A stretch of DNA of 64,000 bases from Adineta ricciae (lineage: Eukaryota; Rotifera; Eurotatoria; Adinetida; Adinetidae). Below, one piece after another: positions 14,403-60,369 of this stretch. The DNA is taken from NCBI GenBank assembly GCA_905250025.1, contig CAJNOJ010000077.1, positions 342,502-406,501 on the forward strand, in the 5' to 3' direction. The notes under the pieces were generated by a model. The model had not been told where the DNA came from, made no database searches, and saw only the letters and a program-made list of their open reading frames with translations. The position numbers were made by a program, and so were the translations under genes. Within the stretch, counting starts at the first letter, position 1, and the number at the start of each line of letters is the position of its first letter.

Positions 14403-16342
14403 TTATCTCGAAGAGGATGAGTCTTTTGTCACCACTGAATTATGCTTATTTTGATAACAGCTATTATTATTTCTATCATTCTTTCGTATAGCATTGGGCA
14501 GTGGCGAAGAAACTTTGACAAATGGTGCCATGAAAAGTAACGCGAGTAACATCAATATCAACCAAATCAGTCCGTAATAAAACAAACGTATACCAGTGAT
14601 GAATATATTCATTGTCTTCTTCGCATTCTGCTTACGCCTTTGTGCCACAGCGTCATAATAGATTTCATTCAATTGATCACTAGCAGAATCCCATGAATGT
14701 TTCAATGCTTGTTCTTGTGCCTTTATCGACAAATACTTGCGATCTTTCATAGCACAACGGACAGCTTCTTCAGCTGAATCTAGATCATCTGGTTTCCATA
14801 AATATCCGTGTTCACCATTGACAAAGAATTCTTTCAATTGTCCACCTTCTGCTGCGACCACTGGCGTTCCACTCGCCATTGCTTCTAAGTAAACTTGTCC
14901 GAATGTTTCACTAACTGATGCGTACAGAAAATAATCAGCACTTGCATACGCGCTTGCTAGCTCCTCTCCGCCGAGATAACCAAAGAAATATACACGGTCT
15001 CTGGGAAATACGGGTTCTAAGGTTTGTCGATATGGACCATCACCAATAATACAGAGAAATGTTTGATTTGGTATGCGATCTAATACAAGTGATAGAAATT
15101 CGAAATTCTTCTCCGGAGATATTCGACCGACGCAGAGAAATAGCGTTATCGAATCCATTTGTTGTTCAGTAAAGTTATTATATGTTCCAAACATACGGTA
15201 GCGCATCAATTGTGAACGTCGATTACGGTTGAATAGTTCAGAATCGACACCCGTTTTCCAAACAATAACTGGCCGAGGTATGCCTGTGTTTTCCATAAAT
15301 TCAGCAAAATCTTTGCTAACTGTTAAATTGGCTGACGAATAGATTAAGTGTTTCAAACGAATGAATTGGTACAGAGATCGAGTCATAGTCACAGCGTACG
15401 AACGCATGTAAGTTAAAAGATAGAAGTCGATATTGGTATGTGATGACCACACGATCGGGATATTGAGAGATTTAGCAATGGCACCACAAAACATGGCTGC
15501 TGGTGTTTGTTCAACAATATGGATGACATCAGGTGAAAATCGACGAATCGCTGAGTATATAGTTGGCTAAAATCAAAATTCAACATATTCGAACTACATA
15601 TATGAAACGTTTTATCTTAAAAACAAATATTATTCATTCTCTGTCATCTCAATATATTCTACACTCGATGACCGTTAAGATGTTTGTGTTCTTTTTTTTA
15701 TATTCTTAATGCACTTTCGTACTCAGGTTAAGAGAATCTATGCAAAGCGCTAGGTGCTAAAAAAGCATTCGTTTTTCTTTGTCTGCTCAGCCTTCGATCG
15801 TTGGTATGAAACCACAATATGACTAGTTTCACGCATGAATGCGCGGACTTTTACATGTGCCAAGCCTATTTTATTTGTGCAACTTACATTAGGAAAAAGA
15901 AACGGACAAGCACAGTCGATTTTGTTGGTAAATTCAGTTGATGGCAATGAAGAGAATGTAACGTAGGTCTCAAGTATATCATTTCCTTCGACCCATGTCA
16001 AAGCATTCTAAATAGATACAATGAATCACAATAACAAGGTTTAATCGAGCTTAAGTTATGCAAATAATACAGTCGATAAATAGTTTTCAATTTTTTTCTC
16101 TCTCTTTCTATCCGACTTACTTTGCAACCAGTAATTACGTGAATATGATGTTTTCGGTTAGCTAAACGTCGAATGATTTCTTTGAATCGACGTGTTATGC
16201 CACTGGTGAACGACGGGAAACTTTCGGCAAATAGAAGAATCCGTAATGGTTCGTCATGGTGAAAACCATTTGTGTAAGCTATGCAAAAAGAAAAGTAAAC
16301 AGTTACGAAGAATATTCCGTAGTGAAAACAAATGGTTCTCAT
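14403..16342 (-). CDS. GT4 glycosyltransferase, SQD2-like, membrane-anchored
   Basis: Retaining GT-B glycosyltransferase. Exons run about 16342-16121, 16007-15890 and 15566-14403. The N-terminal hydrophobic segment (FFVTVYFSFCIAYTNG) leads into EPLRILLFAESFPSFTSGIT with the GITRRF glycine loop. Then come RRFSPDVIHIVEQTPAA, VWSSHTNIDFYLLTY, the donor-binding domain LFLCVGRISPEKNFEFL, IIGDGPYRQTLE, the catalytic ETFGQVYLEAMASGTPVVAA (E-x7-E motif) and GEHGYLWKPDD. It ends in a C-terminal membrane helix (YYGLIWLILMLLALLFMAPF). The order and spacing are those of plant/bacterial sulfoquinovosyl/mannosyl-type SQD2 proteins. Animals are not known to make sulfoquinovosyl lipid, so the real acceptor is unknown and gene transfer with later intron gain is possible. 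Confidence 0.8.
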
Positions 16343-18818
16343 TGTTAGTCATAAGCGAGCAACGTACCTCCGTTACTAATCATTTGATTTAATAAAAATC
16401 TAAAGTGAAATTTCAATCTCAATGTAAATGAAGTCGAATGAATGAATGTGAAGTAAAAATACTATGAGACACTCTATTCATTCGTCTCCTTTATATATTC
16501 TTGTGAAATGAGTATTCGAGACATGAAATCAATTCTTTTTTTCTTCTTCGTTTTTTTTTCTCATTCTTCCTCTTCTTTCTACCGTACATCAATACGTCTT
16601 CACATGAAAATGCGTGTGCATGTTGTACAGCAACGAAATACTCACATACACATAAAAAATGACTAAAAATACGTTTTCATCACTTGCACATACTGAGCTA
16701 TGATTAATATTTTTCGTTTTCTCTTTCTTTCTATGAATAACTCACATTGGTAGCAATGGTCGATACTTGTCGAGCACTTGTCAACAACATTCGATGTTGA
16801 TGAGTCCTCAGGTGATTGAAAGAGACTTGCGGCTAGTGCTGCACATGAACCCGTTGTGAAACTGAACTTCCACCAAGATGAGGATGTTTCGTGTGGCGAC
16901 GAAGATGCTGTTGCGAACGAAGATAACATTGCATTCTATTCGACAAGTAAAAAAAACAACAGGAATTAGGCAAACAAAATCTGGACGAATCATTCGTTTA
17001 AATGCGTACAGATCAAATCAATCAATCGATCGATCACTAAATTTGATTTCGAAGTCAAAAGCAAAATATTCGCGAGTGCTAACAATAAATGTCCATTAGT
17101 CAACTATTCGATATCATCTAGTCGTTTTACTAATACTTGGGAAAAGGTAGATGTCAGTAGAAAATGCGATTGAAACGTACATTCCTATATTTGAGAAAGA
17201 ATACTCAAGAAAGAAATCTTTTCTACGTGTCGAATGCAAATACAACGAAGGAAAAAAGAAATTTGCAGTTACTAACACAACAGCCGGTACTATACTTACT
17301 AGGCGATAAAGCATACAACCGCATGTCTTTCTTCATTTTCTCTCTCTCTCTCTCTCTATCGCGATTTTTTTTTCTTCATGCTATCTATAGCAAGATCTTC
17401 TTCGTTATGTATGCACTCGTAGTACACAGAATTGTTCGACACTTTTTTCCATCATCAGAACGAACAGAAATTCAACACACAAAAGAACATCGAAGAAGAA
17501 AAAAAGAAACATTTTTTGAGAGAGACAGAAACGAAGAATATAAATATACTATTGCCAGCTTTATATATACATAGACATTGTCGTCGATCAAATGTCAAAT
17601 GTTGCTAAGATGAAGAAATTCAGGGACAAAAAAATACAATAATATTCATAGTTTTTACAACTCAACGAAAGCATAATTATTACTGTTTATTTACAGATTC
17701 AAGGTCGAGCAAGTCCTATTTCTTTTGATTAATCTCACATGATGAAATCAATAATCGAATATGAAAACATTCTTATCAAATATTTTCTTCGGATGAAAAG
17801 TATTCGATGTAAATTTGCATTCACGATTTCTTTTCTCTATTGATCATAAATATTTTATTATTTTGAAAAGACCTACAATGTAACAATCCGAATGAATCAT
17901 CTCAAATTTCTGGCAAATAGAACGATATGATTTCATTTTTTTCTCGTCGTGTTTTGTCATCAAGTAGATAAATATAGACATTGGACTTAATGGACAATTA
18001 ACGAACGATATCAGTATCAATTTTCGTTCTGCTAAACTTCAAAATCGACAGCACGCGTGCACTTTAGAGAACAGAAATAGATTATGATGTAAATCTTCGC
18101 ACTCAATAGATTTCAATGTGATCCTCTTACATAAATAAATATACACAGAGCAATGAATAATGCACTTCGAAAATAACCATATGGATAAATAGAAAGTCAT
18201 CACTGGATGACAATATGTAGAAAGTAGAGATAAATCGATGGATGATTAATCTATATACACATGTGCGGACGAGAGATAATAAGACGAGACAATAGTTTTT
18301 GATGAGGTTGCAAAACAAAAATGTACAAAAAAATTATTGATTTATTTTAACAAGAATTCATTTGACTGAGCAAGAAATTGATACGTGATTACGATACGAT
18401 CGGTTGTCCTTCTTTCCGACGCCGTGGAAATATGGTAATCTTGGTAAATAATTTGGATGTAAACCAAACGATAGGAAATGTTTTTGTGTTTAATCAGAAT
18501 GCAATGATTATTCACAGCAAGAATTCTAGTTTTCATACGATATCAAACTGCTGTGAGATATGGCCTCATTTATATATCTGGTTCGATATGATTATGGAAA
18601 CATGCGCGTTCAGAATAAATGAATTGAAGAGATAGAGACACGTTGTCGATAGAGGTCGCTCACCATCATTCGTCGAAATGAAAAACCGCATGACAAGGTT
18701 CAATTGGTTGATAAGTTTGACCGTTTGATCTGGCAGATAGGACGAGCTGCACTTGTTTGTCAACAAATGTTTGAAGGGTATCGTATGTATTCGATACAAA
18801 TTGATATTTAAACTGACG
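16343..18818. other. Non-coding stretch between divergent genes
   Basis: About 2.5 kb with CT/TC runs (near 16530-16570 and 17335-17370) and AT-rich sequence. Open frames here are serine-, arginine- or phenylalanine-biased and show no family likeness. It contains the 5' regions of the SQD2-like gene and the TALE/BRCT gene. Confidence 0.4.
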
Positions 18819-21800
18819 ATGGATTCATATACGAGTGACAATGAAGACCATGATCTTCGTTCTTTATCTGAACGTATTTTACCTTTAACATCTGCATCTT
18901 TTACGAATAATAATATATCTCCTCGAAATAATAGCAATAATCCTAATCGTATTCGTTCACTAAAACCACAAAAAAGTATTTCATTCGATAATCGAACTTA
19001 TCGTGAAGAAATGTCCTTTCCAACAACAGCAAGCACAGGTGATATTATACAGTTAAGCGATGGTACGCGAAAAAAATACAACGGTTCATCATGGCGTCGA
19101 ATGTGTTCCAAACCAAATTGTACTTATTATACACAGAGTCAAGGCTTATGCAAACCACATTTAGCGGCATCGAAGAAGCGCAAACTATCCAAGAGTGACA
19201 ATGATTTACCCGTGATTGAGGCAGCGCTTTCGACTCAAAAAGAACCTAAGAAAGGTGATATTATTGTTTTACCGAATGGTGTTCGCAAAAAATATGACGG
19301 ACGACAATATAGACGTGTTTGTGCTAAACCTTCATGTACTGTTGTTGTACATGGTAGTCTAGAATATCAAAATGGGTTTGTATTGATGAATTTTCGACTA
19401 TTGCTCTCTATTTCTAAGTATGAATTGTAGTTTATGCCCTCATCATTATAATGAATATCGTTTCAATACCAGTAGTCAAACAATACCTCAAACTGAACAA
19501 GAATTATTCAACCAAAGCTCGACTCCACCGAAGCAGTCTGTGATGCTATCATCATCATCACGCAAACGTCATCGCCCCAATTCTCCATTATCCGGTAATT
19601 TATCACAAGTCCCAATATATGATAATCACAGTAAAAGCTCGGTACCCAAACCGAATCGTCGTCTATCGATTGCTGTTATTCCACCATCAGTCGACATTGA
19701 ACATCCGAACAAAGGTGATATTATTGAAATGGAAAATGGTTCAAGAAAGAAGTTCGATGGTGTTGTCTGGCGGACGATTTGCTCAATTCCAGGCTGTTTA
19801 ATAGCTGCACAACGAAACGAACTATGTCGGAAACATTTCATTAAACTTAATGGCAAACCGAATACAGCACCGACTATGGCCACGAATATGAACACTTCCG
19901 GCGCAAGGCTCACATCCAGAGTTGATAGCAGTTCGTCCCTGGATGATAGATCAGGTAACCGGTTAACTACACAAATCTGTAATACTTCACACACTGTTTC
20001 GTCTAGAAGCGCTCCACAATGTCAAGTTTTCGAAGGATCTTGTCACTGGTGTCAGAGATGAATCGATAGATTACGATGGTAGCCAACATGAAGAGCCCAA
20101 TACCGATAATATATCTAACAGTTACAGTATTTCTGGTTTGTTTCTTTCTTCCAAATTGAATTTGAATTTTTCACTGTTGCTTTTCAGACGAAGAAACACA
20201 TATTAAACATGAACAGTCGTCACCAATTGAGGATGACAATCTAGGCACACAGATCGATCATACATTAATTAATGCACTTTCAGCAAGCAGAGAAAAATTT
20301 CCAACAAGTGTGGCATTCTTTTCCTCGTTTAAACTTAATACGTTTTTTCCCTCTAAATTTAGCTTTTCTAAAGAAATGGCTCCGGGAACATCGCAGTCAT
20401 CCGTATCCAAGTAATCATGAAAAACTTCAATTAGCTAAACAGTCCTCGATCACATATGATCAAGTGACAACTTGGTTTAATAACGCTCGAGCTATCCTCC
20501 GACGTCGACAAGCAAAACTACGACATCCGTTGAATACTGCTGACGATAACGATGAGGACGACGACGGTATCGATGAACATCTCACTTATGACAATCGAAA
20601 ACGTGAGTCTATTTCTCCAATGTCATTCAATTCAATCGTTCGATTTTTCAGGTCACCGATCAATGCCTTTATTCAACGGTGTCAGCTGTCGTTCGATAGG
20701 TATACAATGCAATCCGTCAACAGTCGAACAGACAACTATAACATCAACGAAAATCTCAGTTATGACCGATGATGAATTAGCATCCGATCGAACAATTCAA
20801 ATCTTGACGCCATCCAATCGAGTATTAGCAACAGATAATGTAAAAGGAAACAGTAGTCATCATTTGCTATTAAATGGAATTAAAACCGAAGATGAAGATG
20901 AACGAGAAAAAGATATTATCATTACAACAACCTGTCTAGATGATGATCAAATGGTAGGCATGAATCTGTTACTCTACACCCTAGAGTCTGCTTTGTAGCA
21001 GAATTTAATTATAAACAGGTTGAGTGGCTAGAAACTAATTTCTACATTAATTATCATGAATAAGATAGGAACCCATTATTCGAGAACATCTATGGAGTAC
21101 ACTTGTTATCAACGTAAATAGGCGACTACAAGAATTGCGTGCCTGTTGAGTTAATACCAGTGTGAGAATGATAAGAAAAAGATTATTTTTTCGTGTATAA
21201 AAAAAATTCCAGAGACAAGGAATGTGATAACAGCAGGAAGAACTTTGTCAGGTTTATGGCTTCATTTATGTTTAGGTACGCGTTAAAGATTTCTGCTCAA
21301 GATTTCAAATTGAATTGTGTAATGTTGTTGATGAAACGACGACACACTTAATAACTGATGAAGAAGAAGGTGAAACACTCGTCTGTCCTTTATCGAAAAA
21401 AGTTATTCAATCAGTTGCTCGCCATATGTACATTGTCACATATCGATGGATTGATGCTTGTCTAGAAGCCAACAAGATTGTTAACGAAAAACCGTTCGAA
21501 ATTCAAGGTGATCTCACGCTTTCGTCCGATCATAATGGTTTGTCGATGCTCGTGTTTTGCTACGAGAAGAAAAGGTGATTTTCGTCTGTTTTGTAGGCAT
21601 GCAACGAAGTCGACAGAGTATTTTACCAGATAGTTTACCGAAAAATCTTTTATTAGAAAATTTTTCTATTATGTTAAAATGTAATGGATGTCAAGAAATG
21701 ATGAATAATGAAGAATTAATTGAATTAGTTCAATTATCTGGTGCTAAACATACAACTGATTCTCATTTTTCTCGCTTACAACCAGGTATTACTCGTATTG

Positions 21801-22013
21801 TTCTGTGTGAAAAAGAATATCTTATGAATCGACGTGAAATGTATGAAAAATGTATTCAATCCGGTATTCATTTTCTCACTCCGGAATGGTAAATGTGAAC
21901 AGCGACAGACAATACAAGATTTTCAACTCTTCTCGTTTCTTTCTTCTAGGTTTCTGGAATCACTTGTTCAATATCGTATTCAACCATTTCAAGAATATCA
22001 AATATCGCCATAA
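18819..22013 (+). CDS. Zinc-knuckle x3 / TALE homeodomain / tandem BRCT fusion protein
   Basis: Nine exons (18819-19375, 19431-19954, 20007-20135, 20188-20307, 20363-20602, 20652-20953, 21276-21537, 21597-21888, 21950-22013) sum to 2490 nt, exactly 830 codons (829 residues). Three copies of a GDII-x(3)-G-RKK(F/Y)(D/N)G...C-x4-C...C-x2-H unit lie at about residues 74-120, 146-198 and 281-328. A TALE homeodomain follows at about 440-495 (WLREHRSHPYPS with the PYP loop; TYDQVTTWFNNARAILRR). A BRCA1-like tandem BRCT occupies about 611-829: IIITTTCLDDDQM, DETTTHLITDEEEG, YIVTYRWIDACLEANKIVNE, then FLTPEWFLESLVQYRIQPF. The first BRCT is split across the 322-bp intron after 20953, phase 0, so homeodomain and BRCT share one reading frame. 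Nuclear DNA- and phosphopeptide-binding role inferred. The only doubt is whether two genes meet at that intron; the BRCT start encoded in exon 6 argues against that. Confidence 0.8.
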
Positions 22014-46653: not shown

Positions 46654-48636
46654 ATAAATAAACAAAAGAGACGAACGAATTTTTTTCTCTCCCTTCACTC
46701 TAGATCGACTCATTCTCAATTGTTTTCACCTTATGTTGCGCGATCAGAATTCGATTCTACGACGCATCTCGTCCGGCAATCAATCGCACTTTAAAAACTG
46801 ACTTTTCCAATCTAAGTGATTTATTGTAACTTGATTATTGGTATTGTAGACATCTATTTTTCCAACGACAAGTATTTCAATACCTTCCGGCGTTCGAATA
46901 GATTATTGATCGTTGCTACTAAAACAACATTTTTATTCTGTCGAATCTGAATATTAAATATTCCTTTATGATCAAGAACAAAGGCCGTTAACTCTATTCG
47001 TATGCCTCCGCAGTGTTTTTAACATTGCAGATGTATATATAGAACAATACATTATTACTTAAAATAAACGTTTTATGCTACATCTTCCATCGCCCACTAA
47101 ACCTTTCTGAGAAAAATTAGGTTTTAGTTGCTGACATTTTCTTCCACTATTGACAAATCGAATAATGGATAATTTGCATGTTATTTTCCGATAGTGTTAG
47201 AAATTAATGTTTTCGTATTTATATAAACGATACATTTGACTTGAAAGGGAAATGTTGTCGTCAGTGTTTCATTTCCTCGCTGACCTGAAAGACTAAGCGC
47301 ACTGTTCTCGAACATTTTCCTGTTTTTGTGTTTGTTTCACATAATGAATGTAGTTGTAGTCCGAGGTGTCGAGAGAAGGAATTAATTATTCTTCTTAGAT
47401 TACCTTTGAAATCACGCAAAGTACAAATGAGTTTCTAAGTAAAATATGTAATTAATAGGCTTTTTCTCGATATAAATCACTTGTAATCTAAAATGACATT
47501 TGAGACAATTTCCTTTAAATGCGACGCACTGCAAGACTCGAAAACGTTTTCCCTCTCCCGTTCAGGTCATATTTGTGAGGATGTAGAGAAATCATGATAC
47601 TTCGGATCATTTCAAATATAGTTCAGAAGAGAAGCATTCGATTCTGTCAAAGTTAATTTCTTTGTTTTCAGTCCATCCGAACAATCAGTTCTCCTGCGGA
47701 GTACAAAAGAAAGACGCAGTATCGTTGACATCAAGAGGAACATTATTAACTTTTTTTGTTGCATTCTCGGAGTTGTTTGTAATACTATCGGTTGTTATGT
47801 TTTTCTTAATGACTAACATATCTTGTGTGCTTTTATTGATTAGAACTGACGAGAATATTGCGAATAGTGTTTGTTCAAAAGAAATACGCAAAAGAAAAAG
47901 AATTTTTCTAACGTATGAAGACTTGTGGCACAGGCATTCGCGCAATTGAGAAAGAAAGACTTGTTTTTGCCATTGGATTGAAAAAGAAAATCTCCATTTA
48001 GACATCAATGAGTCTTGTTACGCTTTTCTTCATTTTTTTTTATTGAGCTTATACTTCGAAAATGTATTCATCCGAACAAAGAACATGATCATATTAGACG
48101 CACGTTGAAGGACAAACTAAATGAAGAGAGACTAAGTAAAAAAGAAAAAGAAGAAGAAATGACATTTTACAATCGTCATCATCTACATTCCGGATATACT
48201 TAAGGCCTTCACATCTGAACAAGTTCCTAATAAATAATTCTACTTCTGATTCTTTTTCTCTCGTTTAACAATACTAGAAAGAAAGAAAACGCCGACGACA
48301 ACTTACTTTTGTAAGCTAAGGCAAATCATTTAGATCCCTGACTATTTCTGTCCTATGTACATCATTTCCTCGTTCGAATTTACCTAGTCAATAGAAATTA
48401 TTGAACGGAAATCATTTCGATTTTGGTTCGTCGACTAACGGATTCAATGACGACGACGCAAAGAGAAAACAAAGCGACAAATTCATTTCTTAGATCTCTT
48501 CCTTCATATATTTAGATTCAGTGTTAACTTTATTAGCCAGATCTCTATTCGAAATCTTAGCGAACACATCACATCGATTAATCGAAAGCCAAAGAATCCA
48601 ACGACGTCATTCTGCTGATCCATATGCATTGTTCAC
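46654..48636. other. Non-coding stretch
   Basis: About 2 kb. The frame at 47662-47949 has a hydrophobic patch but no conserved features, and its opposite strand is equally open; not called. Presumed promoter region of the receptor gene. Confidence 0.4.
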
Positions 48637-50322
48637 ATGCAAATTATACCTCAACTCGAGCAAATTGTCATCTCGACATCAAGAAATCAATCCACCACCG
48701 ACAATTTATCTTTCGTTATGCTAGCAAATGATACGATCTCTTCGTCACATCGCCCATTTTTTCTCACGATCCTAATCGCTATTTGTCTTTCGACTATTGT
48801 CATATTAACCATCGTCGGAAATATTCTCGTTCTAATTGCGCTATGCTTCGACTTCGCACTTCGTTCACCAACACATTTACTAATGGGAAATCTGGCGTGT
48901 GCCGACCTGTTATTAGGTAATCTATCACTCCCGAATCATGAACCAGAAACAGAAAGTAATTCTGTTCTTTGTTTAGGTATCACCGTTTTACCTTTTTCAT
49001 CAACTCTGGAAATTCTCGAAGGAAAATGGCTATTCGGTCGAACGTTCTGTCATATCTGGCTTGCTATTGATGTTCTCTACTGCACAGCAAGTATCTACGG
49101 TTTAATGTTCATATCTATCGAACGGTATATTGGTGTAACACGTCCATTACGTTATCCGATTATCATTACACATAGTCGAACATTGTTTGCGATATTGATT
49201 GCTTGGCTAGTTTCGATTCTAGTGTCTATCGTTCCCTTTCTTGGTTGGCATAACGAAGTGAAACTAATCGATCAAGCTTGTTTGGTGAACGATAATTTGT
49301 CTTACGTTCTTTTTTCATGTTCATTTTCATTTTATATACCTTTAATTATTATTCTTTGTGTTTATGGACGCATTTACAATGAAGCTATTCGGCAACATGC
49401 ATTTCTTACTGGCGGGGAGAAGAAAGTTCGGTTGAAAGAGACTGACGGACAAGAATGTGTTACTCTACGTATACATATACCACAACATTTGTCAGCGTCA
49501 ACGACATCGCTATCGAATACAATTCATTCCTCAAGTTCAACATTAGCCATGAATGGACGAAGATTGTCAACACTACTGACACCCAATGGTCCGAATAAAT
49601 TATCGAAATTTATGCGTGAGCGAAAAGCTGGTAAAGATCAGTAAACTTAACTTTTGTCTTGAGTGAAAATATCTATCCGTTTTCCTAGCTAAAACACTGG
49701 GCATCGTTGTAGGAATGTTTATCCTATGCTGGTCACCATTTTTTCTTCTTTTACCAATAAGTAAATGAATGAAAGATCGAGTTGATGCTCGTCATTTATG
49801 TGGCTTTCTTTTTTTTTACAGAAGCATTGACAAATTACGATCCGGGATTGATATTCTCCATTTGTTTTTGGTTAGGTTATTGCAATTCATGCTTCAATCC
49901 ATTTATTTACGCATTTTCTAGTCGAGAATTTCGAAGGTACGTCGTTAAAAGCCGACTGAGCAAATATTTTTTTCCTTTTGGCTTTTTTTAGATCATTTGA
50001 ATCGATTTTAAGATGTCATCGCAAACAATATCGACGTACATCGATAAGTTTATCGCGTGTATCCGCTGCAACAGCTATGGATCAAGTTCAATTGAGAAAA
50101 TCTCTGAGCTGTGATGTCACATCACCTCGTTTCTTTCCGAAATTGCATTCCAGTGTCAGCTGTCGAACATCCTACGACAGCCAACAGAATTTTATTCCAC
50201 TTCAAAAAACAAGTAACTTTCTGAAGCGTCCTCATCTCTCCGTTTTTCATCGTCTATCGCATTCAACCAATTCTAAATCGTTATCCGATTGGCATCTTCA
50301 GCAGCCAACTAATGTCAGATAA
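48637..50322 (+). CDS. Alpha-1-adrenergic-like biogenic amine receptor (class A GPCR)
   Basis: Seven-helix receptor. TM1 holds [14 protein letters not shown]. The exon 1/2 junction (phase 1 at 48918) restores [20 protein letters not shown], with the TM2 aspartate. Then come the ECL1 tryptophan ([11 protein letters not shown]), TM3 [20 protein letters not shown] with the amine-binding aspartate, and ERY in place of DRY. TM5 has [20 protein letters not shown] long third loop with LRIHIPQH and [13 protein letters not shown] precedes TM6 [20 protein letters not shown] and TM7 [20 protein letters not shown]. The ICL3 EL(T)LRIH and TM6/TM7 wording is close to alpha-1 adrenergic/octopamine receptors. 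Four or five exons. Two start candidates: 48637 or 48718. Confidence 0.85.
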
Positions 50323-57588: not shown

Positions 57589-57978
57589 TTAGATCCAGTA
57601 GGACGAATAGACTTTTAGCATCTCGATCAGGTAAGATTTAACCTCTCTGTGATACTTTTTTTCAGACAGAAGCGCGCTATGCAAATAGAAGCTGTTTCGA
57701 TTTATTTCTTTCAGTTTAACTACGTCTTTTACTAAACACTTTCTTTTCACATTTTTAATCTTTGCATAGCAACAATTGCATTCTCTACAGGCATGTTTTT
57801 CTCGTTCTTCAGTTGTTATGCATAAAAAAGTAACTGTGCGAATGCGGTAGAAAGAAGAAAGAACACAAAAATTTACCAACGAAGTTACCTTTTTATTGTG
57901 ATTTAACCGACACAGCACCAAAGCAGAGTGTGCGAAGGCAATAACAACTACGAGAACAATAATCAGAACTTTCAACAC
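57589..57978 (-). CDS. Possible small secreted cysteine-containing protein
   Basis: A 129-residue open frame with a textbook N-terminal signal sequence (MLKVLIIVLVVVIAFAHSAL). It is followed by a basic, cysteine-bearing stretch (HACRECNCCYAKIKNVKRKC). A GTAACT donor after NHNKK could remove an intron and shorten it. It starts 27 bp from the likely start of the ART gene, head to head. Family not recognised; may be spurious. Confidence 0.35.
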   Translation of the reverse strand: MLKVLIIVLVVVIAFAHSALVLCRLNHNKKVTSLVNFCVLSSFYRIRTVTFLCITTEEREKHACRECNCCYAKIKNVKRKCLVKDVVKLKEINRNSFYLHSALLSEKKYHREVKSYLIEMLKVYSSYWI

Positions 57979-58005
57979 AGTATACTATCGGTCGATCTTC
58001 GAAAG

Positions 58006-60369
58006 ATGCAAGACGTCGTTGTGATCTGGCTCGACAATCAGATTGATCATAACAATGCTGATTGCCAGTTTACAATTGCACAACTTAAACACATTACTGA
58101 CAATGTCACTACATTCACGGATAATGACGAATGTGTCGAATATATACTCAATTGTAATGACCATCAAGTCTATCTAATCGTTTCTGGTGCACTTGGACAA
58201 TATCTTGTGCGTTGTGTCCACGACATTCCTCTATTACACTCGATTTTCATCTTTTGTCAAAACAAATCATATCATGAACAATGGACTAGACATTGGAACA
58301 AGATTAAAGATGTTTGCGCTGATATAACATCACTCTGCCAAGCCATTCAGAACACGTTTCTCCAAGATGAGCCCACTGTCACACCAATCAGTTTTGTACC
58401 ATCTGGCAAAAGATTGGATCTGCTCAATCCATCTTTCATGTACACACAACTCTTCAAAGAGATCTTGTTAACGATCGAATTCGAAGACAAACACATCGAA
58501 GAGTTTGTCAGGCATTATCCTGGGGTAATCACTCGCGATGGTACACATTCTAATGATGTTGAACAATCAGTACGTGATTACCGTACAAAGAAGCCCATCT
58601 GGTGGTATACAAGAGGTAATTCCTTGCATTCCATGCTCAACGATGCACTACGAATCATGGATGGTGATGTTCTTGTTCGAATGGGATTCTTCGTCACTGA
58701 TCTTCATCGCAACATAGAACAGTTGCACAAAGAACAGTTCGTTAACACACCTTGGAGTTCCCGTGTGTTTACAGTGTATCGTGGACAAGGTCTATCTCAC
58801 ACAGATTTTGAAGAACTAAGAAACACGATAGGCGGGCTGATGTCATTCAACAGCTTCTTCTCTACCAGTATGCAACGTGACGTCTCGTTTTCCTATGCGA
58901 AAAGTAACGCAGACAATCCCAAGTTAGTAGGAATTCTCTTCACAATACAGGTCGATCCTTCCCGGTCAACTACACCGTTTGCCTCAATTGGGAATTATGG
59001 TAGTTTCTTACAAGAAAACGAAGTGTTGTTTTCAATGCACACCGGGTTTCGCATTCATCACATCAAGGTCATTAGCACTGATCGACCACTGTATGAAGTG
59101 AATATCTCGCTGACTCTTGATTCTGACGAAGAGTTACGCACACTGACTGATCATATTCGTCGCGAGACTCGTCTCGATGGTAAAGGTTGGACGCGATTAG
59201 GCGAACTGCTGTTTCAGTTGGGTCAACATGACAAGGCTAAGGCGATTTATGATACTTTACTCAACCAAACATCAGATGACAGTGATGAAGGATTGATATA
59301 TCATCAACTTGGTCATATCCGATACGAACAATGCTTGTTTCAGGAAGCCATAACATTATATGCCAAATCACTTGTGCTTTTCGGAAAATCAGTTCCCGCA
59401 AACTATCCTAATATAGCCACATGCTACAACAACATAGGCTTGGTGTATGACAGTATGGGAGATTATCGAAAAGCACTCGAATACTATGAGAAAGCTCTTT
59501 CAATTCGACAACAATCACTTCCTGCAAGCCATCCTAATATAGCCACATCCTGCAGCAACATCGGCTCGGCGTATGTCAGTAAGGGAGATTATCGAAAAGC
59601 ACTCGAATACTATGAGAAAGCTCTTTCAATTGAACAACAATCACTTCCTGCAAATCATCCTGATTTAGCCACATCCTACAGCAACATCGGCTCGGTGTAT
59701 AACAGTATGGGAGATTATCGGAAAGCACTCGAATACTATGAGAAAGCTCTTTCAATTCGACAACAATCACTTCCTGCAAACCATCCTCATTTAGCCGCAT
59801 CCTACGGCAACATCGGCTTGGTGTATAACAGTATGGGAGATTATCGGAAAGCACTCGAATACTATGAGAAAGCTCTTTCAATTGAACAACAATCACTTCC
59901 TGCAAACCATCCTGATTTAGCCACATCCTACAGCAACATCGGCTTGGTGTATGACTGTATGGGAGATTATCGAAAAGCACTTGAATACTACGAGAAAACT
60001 CTTTCAATTCAACAACAATCACTTCCTGCAAGCCATCCTAATATAGCCACATCCTACAACAACATCGGCGTGGTGTATGACAATATGAGAGATTATCGAA
60101 AAGCACTCGAATACCATGAGAAAGCTCTTTCAATTGAGCAACAATCACTTCCTGCAAACCATCCTGATTTAGCTAGATCCTACAACAACATCGGCTTGCT
60201 GTATGACAGTATGGGAGATTATCCAAAAGCTCACTTCTATTGTGAACGCGCTGTTCAAATTGCCAAGTGTTCAATGTCATCAAATCATCCACACCTTTTA
60301 ACATTCGAAAGAAATCTGGAATGTGTTACAAATGGACTGCAGCACTCTTCTTTTCGTGCTTTAAAATAA
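58006..60369 (+). CDS. ADP-ribosyltransferase fused to kinesin-light-chain-like TPR repeats
   Basis: Intronless; 787 residues from the chosen start (MQDVVVIWLDNQID), or 813 from an upstream ATG at 57928 with a low-complexity Asn-rich extension. N-terminal ~150 residues: a small alpha/beta domain (VVVIWLDN, VYLIVSGALGQ, IFIFCQNKS) seen in bdelloid members of this family. Residues ~170-380: an arginine-type (R-S-E) ADP-ribosyltransferase fold with VYRGQGL (Arg, DNA 58780), SFNSFFSTSM (Ser, 58861) and LQENEVLF (E-x-E, 59014-59022), so the catalytic triad is intact. From ~59173 come TPRs, including seven 42-residue repeats with nearly identical DNA (DYRKALEYYEKALSI). No signal peptide. Probably modifies or binds intracellular proteins; target unknown. 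Confidence 0.88.
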   Translation: MQDVVVIWLDNQIDHNNADCQFTIAQLKHITDNVTTFTDNDECVEYILNCNDHQVYLIVSGALGQYLVRCVHDIPLLHSIFIFCQNKSYHEQWTRHWNKIKDVCADITSLCQAIQNTFLQDEPTVTPISFVPSGKRLDLLNPSFMYTQLFKEILLTIEFEDKHIEEFVRHYPGVITRDGTHSNDVEQSVRDYRTKKPIWWYTRGNSLHSMLNDALRIMDGDVLVRMGFFVTDLHRNIEQLHKEQFVNTPWSSRVFTVYRGQGLSHTDFEELRNTIGGLMSFNSFFSTSMQRDVSFSYAKSNADNPKLVGILFTIQVDPSRSTTPFASIGNYGSFLQENEVLFSMHTGFRIHHIKVISTDRPLYEVNISLTLDSDEELRTLTDHIRRETRLDGKGWTRLGELLFQLGQHDKAKAIYDTLLNQTSDDSDEGLIYHQLGHIRYEQCLFQEAITLYAKSLVLFGKSVPANYPNIATCYNNIGLVYDSMGDYRKALEYYEKALSIRQQSLPASHPNIATSCSNIGSAYVSKGDYRKALEYYEKALSIEQQSLPANHPDLATSYSNIGSVYNSMGDYRKALEYYEKALSIRQQSLPANHPHLAASYGNIGLVYNSMGDYRKALEYYEKALSIEQQSLPANHPDLATSYSNIGLVYDCMGDYRKALEYYEKTLSIQQQSLPASHPNIATSYNNIGVVYDNMRDYRKALEYHEKALSIEQQSLPANHPDLARSYNNIGLLYDSMGDYPKAHFYCERAVQIAKCSMSSNHPHLLTFERNLECVTNGLQHSSFRALK
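59386..60265 (+). repeat. Seven 126-bp tandem repeats encoding TPR units
   Basis: In-frame 126-bp units within the ART-TPR gene. The middle ones differ at only a few positions (for example ATTCGA/ATTGAA before the CAACAATCACTTCCTGCA core), implying recent duplication or gene conversion. Unit number may be collapsed or expanded in the assembly. Confidence 0.85.

Follow-up and report, generated by a model that had tools for sequence, protein, structure and literature searches.

A bdelloid rotifer gene joins zinc modules and a TALE homeodomain to a BRCA1-like tandem BRCT

We describe a gene of the bdelloid rotifer Adineta ricciae that encodes three N-terminal zinc modules, a homeodomain of the three-amino-acid loop extension (TALE) class and a BRCA1-like tandem BRCT in a single protein of 829 amino acids (aa). 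The gene occupies positions 18819-22013 of the window, the whole stretch of 64,000 nucleotides (nt) that was analysed (GenBank assembly GCA_905250025.1, contig CAJNOJ010000077.1, here C77, positions 342,502 to 406,501). That the fused gene is real is close to certain, and the fusion is conserved in Adineta, Rotaria and Didymodactylos. Judging from the residues it retains, the protein probably acts as a phosphorylation-gated adaptor that is bound to DNA at defined sites and captures phosphorylated partners there.

A nine-exon model had been put forward from the letters of the DNA alone (hereafter the sequence-only reading), and it was reproduced here: the exons add up to 2490 nt or 830 codons including the stop, the joined exons contain a single, terminal stop codon, and GT..AG borders are present at all introns (8/8). 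The product is identical to the deposited 'unnamed protein product [Adineta ricciae]' (P0001), a separate gene prediction on the same assembly. Exon 6, as had been claimed, carries both the linker on the homeodomain side and the first BRCT strand, and the phase-0 splice between TTTCLDDDQM and VRVKDFC was confirmed. A Pfam scan of a 779-aa draft, from which exon 3 and the last seven residues of exon 1 were missing, returned Homeobox_KN (expect value, E, 1e-13), BRCT (E 6.8e-12, two stretches) and BRCT_2 (E 6.7e-7). Structure prediction had been suggested as a check, and in the AlphaFold model the zinc modules, the homeodomain and the BRCTs all fold, with a predicted local distance difference test (pLDDT) score of mostly 70-94 per block; the protein as a whole, with its long disordered linkers, has a mean pLDDT of 57.4 and a predicted template modelling score of 0.33.

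Two further copies of the gene were compared with the window. Contig C8 holds a near-allelic copy (L009), 93.7% identical over 9 kb, which keeps all nine exons open with the same intron phases. In a diverged homeolog on contig C3 (L010), the nine exons were placed by sequence, with phases 2,1,1,1,1,0,1,2 as in the window, an agreeing exon 1 donor and one terminal stop; 440/773 aligned residues are identical. The homeology of C77 and C3 is supported because a similar RING frame lies downstream of both copies (window 30118, L041 1617). Upstream, the sole non-coding stretch that aligns to the C3 homeolog is found just 5' of the start codon (window 18751-18790, 40 bases, 90% identity) and may be a common promoter or leader element.

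Constraint on the coding sequence was estimated as the ratio of nonsynonymous to synonymous rates (dN/dS) by an NG86 calculation. Between the window and L009, the amino-acid sequence is unchanged across the homeodomain, BRCT2 and all three zinc modules, and BRCT1 has one change, at a dS of 0.06-0.27 in the domains. Between the window and L010, module 1 has a dN/dS of ~0.06, the homeodomain one of 0.13 and the BRCTs 0.08 and 0.10, and the values for module 2, the N-terminus and the acidic linker are 0.42-0.47; the linker that connects modules 2 and 3 stands at 0.11, and constraint on domains and linkers is therefore not cleanly separated. Synonymous sites in this comparison are near saturation (pS 0.70 overall), and module 3 and the linker from homeodomain to BRCT gave no ratio.

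The search for the same architecture elsewhere, also suggested beforehand, found Homeobox_KN together with BRCT in 14/20 database matches (query protein included). Thirteen of these are assigned to eight bdelloid species, namely A. ricciae, A. vaga, A. steineri, Rotaria magnacalcarata, R. sordida, Rotaria sp. Silwood1, Rotaria sp. Silwood2 and Didymodactylos carnosus. The architecture is beyond chance, since the nine exons and eight phases recur in the C3 homeolog and both domains are present in 14/20 matches, including A. vaga from a separate assembly. The A. vaga orthologue carries the locus tag I4U23_025467. It is extremely improbable that two adjacent genes have been wrongly joined: intron 6 is indeed the longest of the gene, but the first BRCT strand lies within exon 6 itself (window, L009 and L010), fused models occur in eight species, and an intron stands at the same place in other members of the BRCT family described below. 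The joined exons, the C3 homeolog and the database models thus bear out the claim of a single gene fusing a homeodomain to a tandem BRCT. Organism-labelled matches outside bdelloids were absent from the 20-, 81- and 112-match searches except for primate BRCA1, which does not thereby exclude monogononts; the primate matches are trivial, as the 112-match query itself had human BRCA1 among its rows. These searches scored 5052 candidates (20 matches) and the 7997 and 7987 candidates sharing most words (81 and 112 matches). No account of a rotifer protein that joins a homeodomain to a BRCT turned up in the literature searched, and the available part of a fungal domain paper mentions homeodomain and BRCT, not joined. 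The conserved architecture is so far undescribed in that literature, whereas the tandem-BRCT adaptor is of a known kind.

The label 'zinc knuckle' given to the N-terminal repeats proved wrong. The zinc knuckle consensus is C-x2-C-x4-H-x4-C, a CCHC spacing that the repeats do not have; they are of the form C-x4-C-x9/14-C-x2-H and come after GDII..GxRKK[FY][DN]G..[WY]R. Zf_WRKY19 (PF24906) reached 24.3 bits against a cut-off of 27 in the draft scan, yet PF24906 is listed in the precomputed Pfam annotation of P0001 and P0002. Module 2 is degenerate in the C3 copy, and module 3 modelled alone gave a pLDDT of 66.9 and, as a low-confidence model, no PDB match at E <= 0.001. Modules of the matching pattern, RKKFNGKQWRRLCS..C..C.RHLS, stand upstream of an HMG box at two other loci of the same genome (L024 3291-3944, L025 3086-4537). 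We take these loci to be Capicua and assume that human CIC carries the module. Its motif letters do not appear in a Capicua paper (PMC5344332).

Assignment of the homeodomain to the TALE class held up, with an HPYP loop extension, WFNNAR, the Homeobox_KN match and best PDB matches to Meis and PKNOX. Meis2, Meis1 and PKNOX1 lead the PDB ranking (E about 1e-10), followed by PBX and TGIF, and the alignment to Meis is gapless over query residues 12-59. Neither the Pfam scan of the draft nor the precomputed Pfam annotation of full-length P0001 contains a MEIS N-terminal domain, an HMG box or a RING family. The tandem BRCT is BRCA1-like, as proposed: its sequence is closest to BRCA1 (PDB E 2.6e-17), and BRCA1 is at the top of the fold lists, tied with BARD1. 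A RAP1 row was absent from the fold listing of the BRCT pair, which excludes nothing. The Ser/Thr-like residue of the first strand and the pocket lysine noted in the sequence-only reading are both kept, as T617 at the position of BRCA1 S1655 and K666 at that of K1702; with S664 at T1700, the phosphate pocket retains S/T-x-K, and the equivalents of M1775 and L1839 are retained as well.

In the adaptor that we favour, the zinc modules and the homeodomain would bring the protein to particular sites on DNA, the BRCT pair, with T617, S664 and K666, would capture a phosphorylated partner, and kinase signalling would thereby decide what is recruited to those sites. The partner may act in repair, checkpoint control or transcription, and the link to damage signalling proposed in the sequence-only reading is a conjecture. 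BRCA1 prefers phosphopeptides of the form pSer-x-x-Phe, and a different preference is expected here because R1699, which contacts the +3 residue, is replaced by leucine (L663); F1704 is changed to isoleucine. The R1699 replacement weighs against phosphate-dependent binding, as does G1656 to cysteine, and the homeodomain is altered at positions 50, 54 and 55, in the numbering that we assume here, and reads WLHNAR in the C3 copy. All these changes would suit a pure protein scaffold, in which the homeodomain lacks specific DNA binding and the BRCTs bind partners without phosphate. We consider such a scaffold unlikely, however, as the equivalents of Asn51 and Arg53 are retained in the window, C3 and C201 copies, the homeodomain and zinc modules do not differ in amino acids between the window and L009, and S/T and S/T-x-K persist in most rows of the BRCT family.

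The length of intron 6 is five to seven times that of the other seven introns, which span 49-61 nt. Several Rotaria models weigh against an obligatory BRCT tail: P0008, P0010 (24 member sequences) and P0017 extend past the exon-6 donor into intron 6 without a BRCT, and P0009 lacks one to judge from its length and Pfam line. A BRCT-less isoform is therefore possible, and the main product might even be a zinc/homeodomain transcription factor ending in intron 6, with the BRCT exons confined to a minor or regulated isoform. To this last reading we assign a low probability. The BRCT exons are conserved to the same degree as the homeodomain in both comparisons (L009 and L010), both domains are present in 14/20 models, and the first BRCT strand at the end of exon 6 would have no evident use without exon 7. 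In addition, P0018 (30 contigs; jgi, lgn, ena, metaclust) spans the exon 6-7 junction, though it stops after BRCT1. P0022 (408 aa, 1288-nt contig) is an intronless reading from exon 1 into exon 6; it and P0018 are probably transcripts.

The gene is one of a family in bdelloids, in which BRCA1-type tandem BRCTs are combined with varied N-termini. Human BRCA1 BRCT has 22 matching places in the A. ricciae genome at E <= 1, the weakest of which are perhaps other BRCT proteins. Homeodomain-BRCT genes are also found at C133/C201 and C23, without a zinc module in the stretches read, and the C201 homeodomain matches PKNOX1 best in the PDB; the homeodomains of L011-L013 are matched by Pfam's own model and were confirmed by reading the sequence. 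Zinc module-BRCT genes are located at C9/C23, C161 and C166, C2H2-like stretches were seen by eye upstream of BRCT genes at C2:980k and C161:153k, and further BRCT genes lie at C5, C2:632k, C245/C264 and immediately 3' of the C3 copy. C2H2-finger-like stretches, seen by eye, precede the BRCT genes at L034 6500-9300 and L035 4500-7000, a possible further combination of DNA-binding domain and BRCT. The gene ~1 kb downstream of the C3 homeolog (L010 7192-8815) encodes an additional BRCA1-like tandem BRCT with threonine at the K1702 position. P0011 was rejected as a four-BRCT protein, as the C3 copy has its own stop and the model probably results from read-through into the neighbour gene or from a join made by an annotator. 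Similarly, a homeodomain match at L036 was rejected: the stretch read is no homeodomain, and the hidden Markov model behind the match included misaligned rows (P0020, P0028, P0031).

A donor at the first-strand place fits in 14/21 BRCT1 rows of this family; the pattern presets an eight-residue spacing, which makes it a check on a donor at that place and not a blind search for one. Among the seven remaining rows, two are one locus counted twice, one lies at a stretch edge, L034 and L036 show the donor by eye, and L022 and L037 make up the rest. An approximately unbiased test rejected the grouping of the six homeodomain rows as a single clade (p 0.0157; 23/24 BRCT rows, the intron-truncated C161_1 being dropped), in a tree with a very long BRCA1 branch and several weak branches. 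The homeodomain may, tentatively, have been joined more than once; two gains, or a single gain with later losses, would both be conceivable.

Could this family, the fusion gene included, have assumed in bdelloids the tasks performed by canonical RING-bearing BRCA1 in other animals? None of the 116 human BRCA1 RING matches (E <= 1) lies within 20 kb of the 22 BRCT matches, as judged by eye, the nearest being ~24 kb away (C77, C8). A limited search of fetched stretches (19/22 BRCT places, all except C2:632k, C245:50k and C236) found no RING beside family members, the RING pattern being matched solely by a neighbouring gene within the window and by the counterpart of that gene on C3. A takeover would also be in keeping with the loss of BRCA2, Nbs1 and Rad52 reported for A. 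vaga in the part of PMC6264785 available. Against it, RING exons may be split or more distant (C9, C23 and C166 were read for only ~3 kb upstream), and a protein bound to DNA sites would be an odd replacement for a damage-recruited one. In addition, a spaceflight table in the available part of PMC12220480, which also names the A. vaga RNA-seq data set PRJNA1142504, gives the label 'BRCA1' to the A. vaga gene FUN_025314 (log2 fold change 0.35, false discovery rate 0.02); this gene could be either canonical BRCA1 or a member of the BRCT family. Altogether, we regard a takeover as improbable.

Bdelloid rotifers are famous for surviving DNA breakage. As a rule, BRCA1-type tandem BRCTs are brought in by modified chromatin or by partner proteins. 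A tandem BRCT that evolution has tied to zinc modules and a homeodomain would allow phospho-signalling to operate at DNA sites fixed in advance, in animals whose genomes are broken and rebuilt. Each domain can be separated from the others, and the genome holds natural recombinants (zinc-BRCT, homeodomain-BRCT and zinc-homeodomain-BRCT). A broader and rather doubtful possibility is that bdelloids broke up BRCA1: the RING protein would be gone, and copies of its tandem BRCT would have been attached to several N-termini that bind DNA (a zinc module, a TALE homeodomain and possibly C2H2). The outcome would be a set of site-specific readers of kinase signalling, directing repair or transcription to selected places in the genome as the animals recover from desiccation.

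Elsewhere in the window, a glycosyltransferase gene (Glycos_transf_1; 14406-15566, minus strand) lies upstream of the fusion gene. Two frames on the plus strand encode a Rhodopsin-family G protein-coupled receptor (48619-49641) and an 820-aa protein with many tetratricopeptide repeats (57907-60366), whose first half looks ADP-ribosyltransferase-like by eye.

Table 1 Features of the fusion gene, in window positions.
Feature	Positions	Strand	Description
Exon 1	18819..19375	+	start codon, N-terminal region, zinc module 1, first part of module 2
Zinc module 1	19035..19166	+	C-x4-C-x9-C-x2-H after KKYNGSSWRR; Zf_WRKY19 below cut-off
Zinc module 2	19251..19449	+	C-x4-C-x14-C-x2-H; interrupted by intron 1 (19376-19430)
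Exon 2	19431..19954	+	end of zinc module 2, basic linker, zinc module 3
Zinc module 3	19711..19845	+	C-x4-C-x9-C-x2-H
Exon 3	20007..20135	+	linker
Exon 4	20188..20307	+	linker, homeodomain start
TALE homeodomain	20286..20520	+	residues 437-496; interrupted by intron 4 (20308-20362)
Exon 5	20363..20602	+	bulk of TALE homeodomain (PYP loop, WFNNAR helix 3)
Exon 6	20652..20953	+	linker, then first BRCT strand (DIIITTTCLDDDQM)
BRCT1	20912..21537	+	residues 611-712; interrupted by intron 6
Intron 6	20954..21275	+	phase 0, 322 nt; same BRCT-fold place as human BRCA1 c.4986/4987
Exon 7	21276..21537	+	remainder of BRCT1
Exon 8	21597..21888	+	BRCT linker, bulk of BRCT2
BRCT2	21650..22013	+	residues 730-829; interrupted by intron 8 (21889-21949)
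Exon 9	21950..22013	+	BRCT2 end, stop codon

Four known systems resemble the fusion protein in part. Capicua-like HMG-box proteins have the zinc-module pattern in common with it, but they carry an HMG box, whereas the bdelloid protein has three copies of the module. The TALE factors MEIS and PKNOX share the homeodomain with its PYP loop; the fusion differs in lacking the MEIS N-terminal domain, in altered helix-3 residues and in the added BRCT tail. With BRCA1 it shares the tandem BRCT by sequence, the pocket residues and the phase-0 intron at the corresponding place, but BRCA1 bears a RING where the fusion has zinc modules and a homeodomain. The nearest working analogue is RAP1 (TERF2IP), which likewise couples a DNA-binding domain to a BRCT, the latter in an N-terminal position. 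In RAP1, according to the available part of PMC12221994, a Myb domain of homeodomain arrangement is joined to the BRCT, and the protein acts at telomeres and keeps LIG4 from DNA-PK. RAP1 has one BRCT, which contacts KU, and a Myb domain, whereas the fusion combines two BRCT stretches with a TALE homeodomain.
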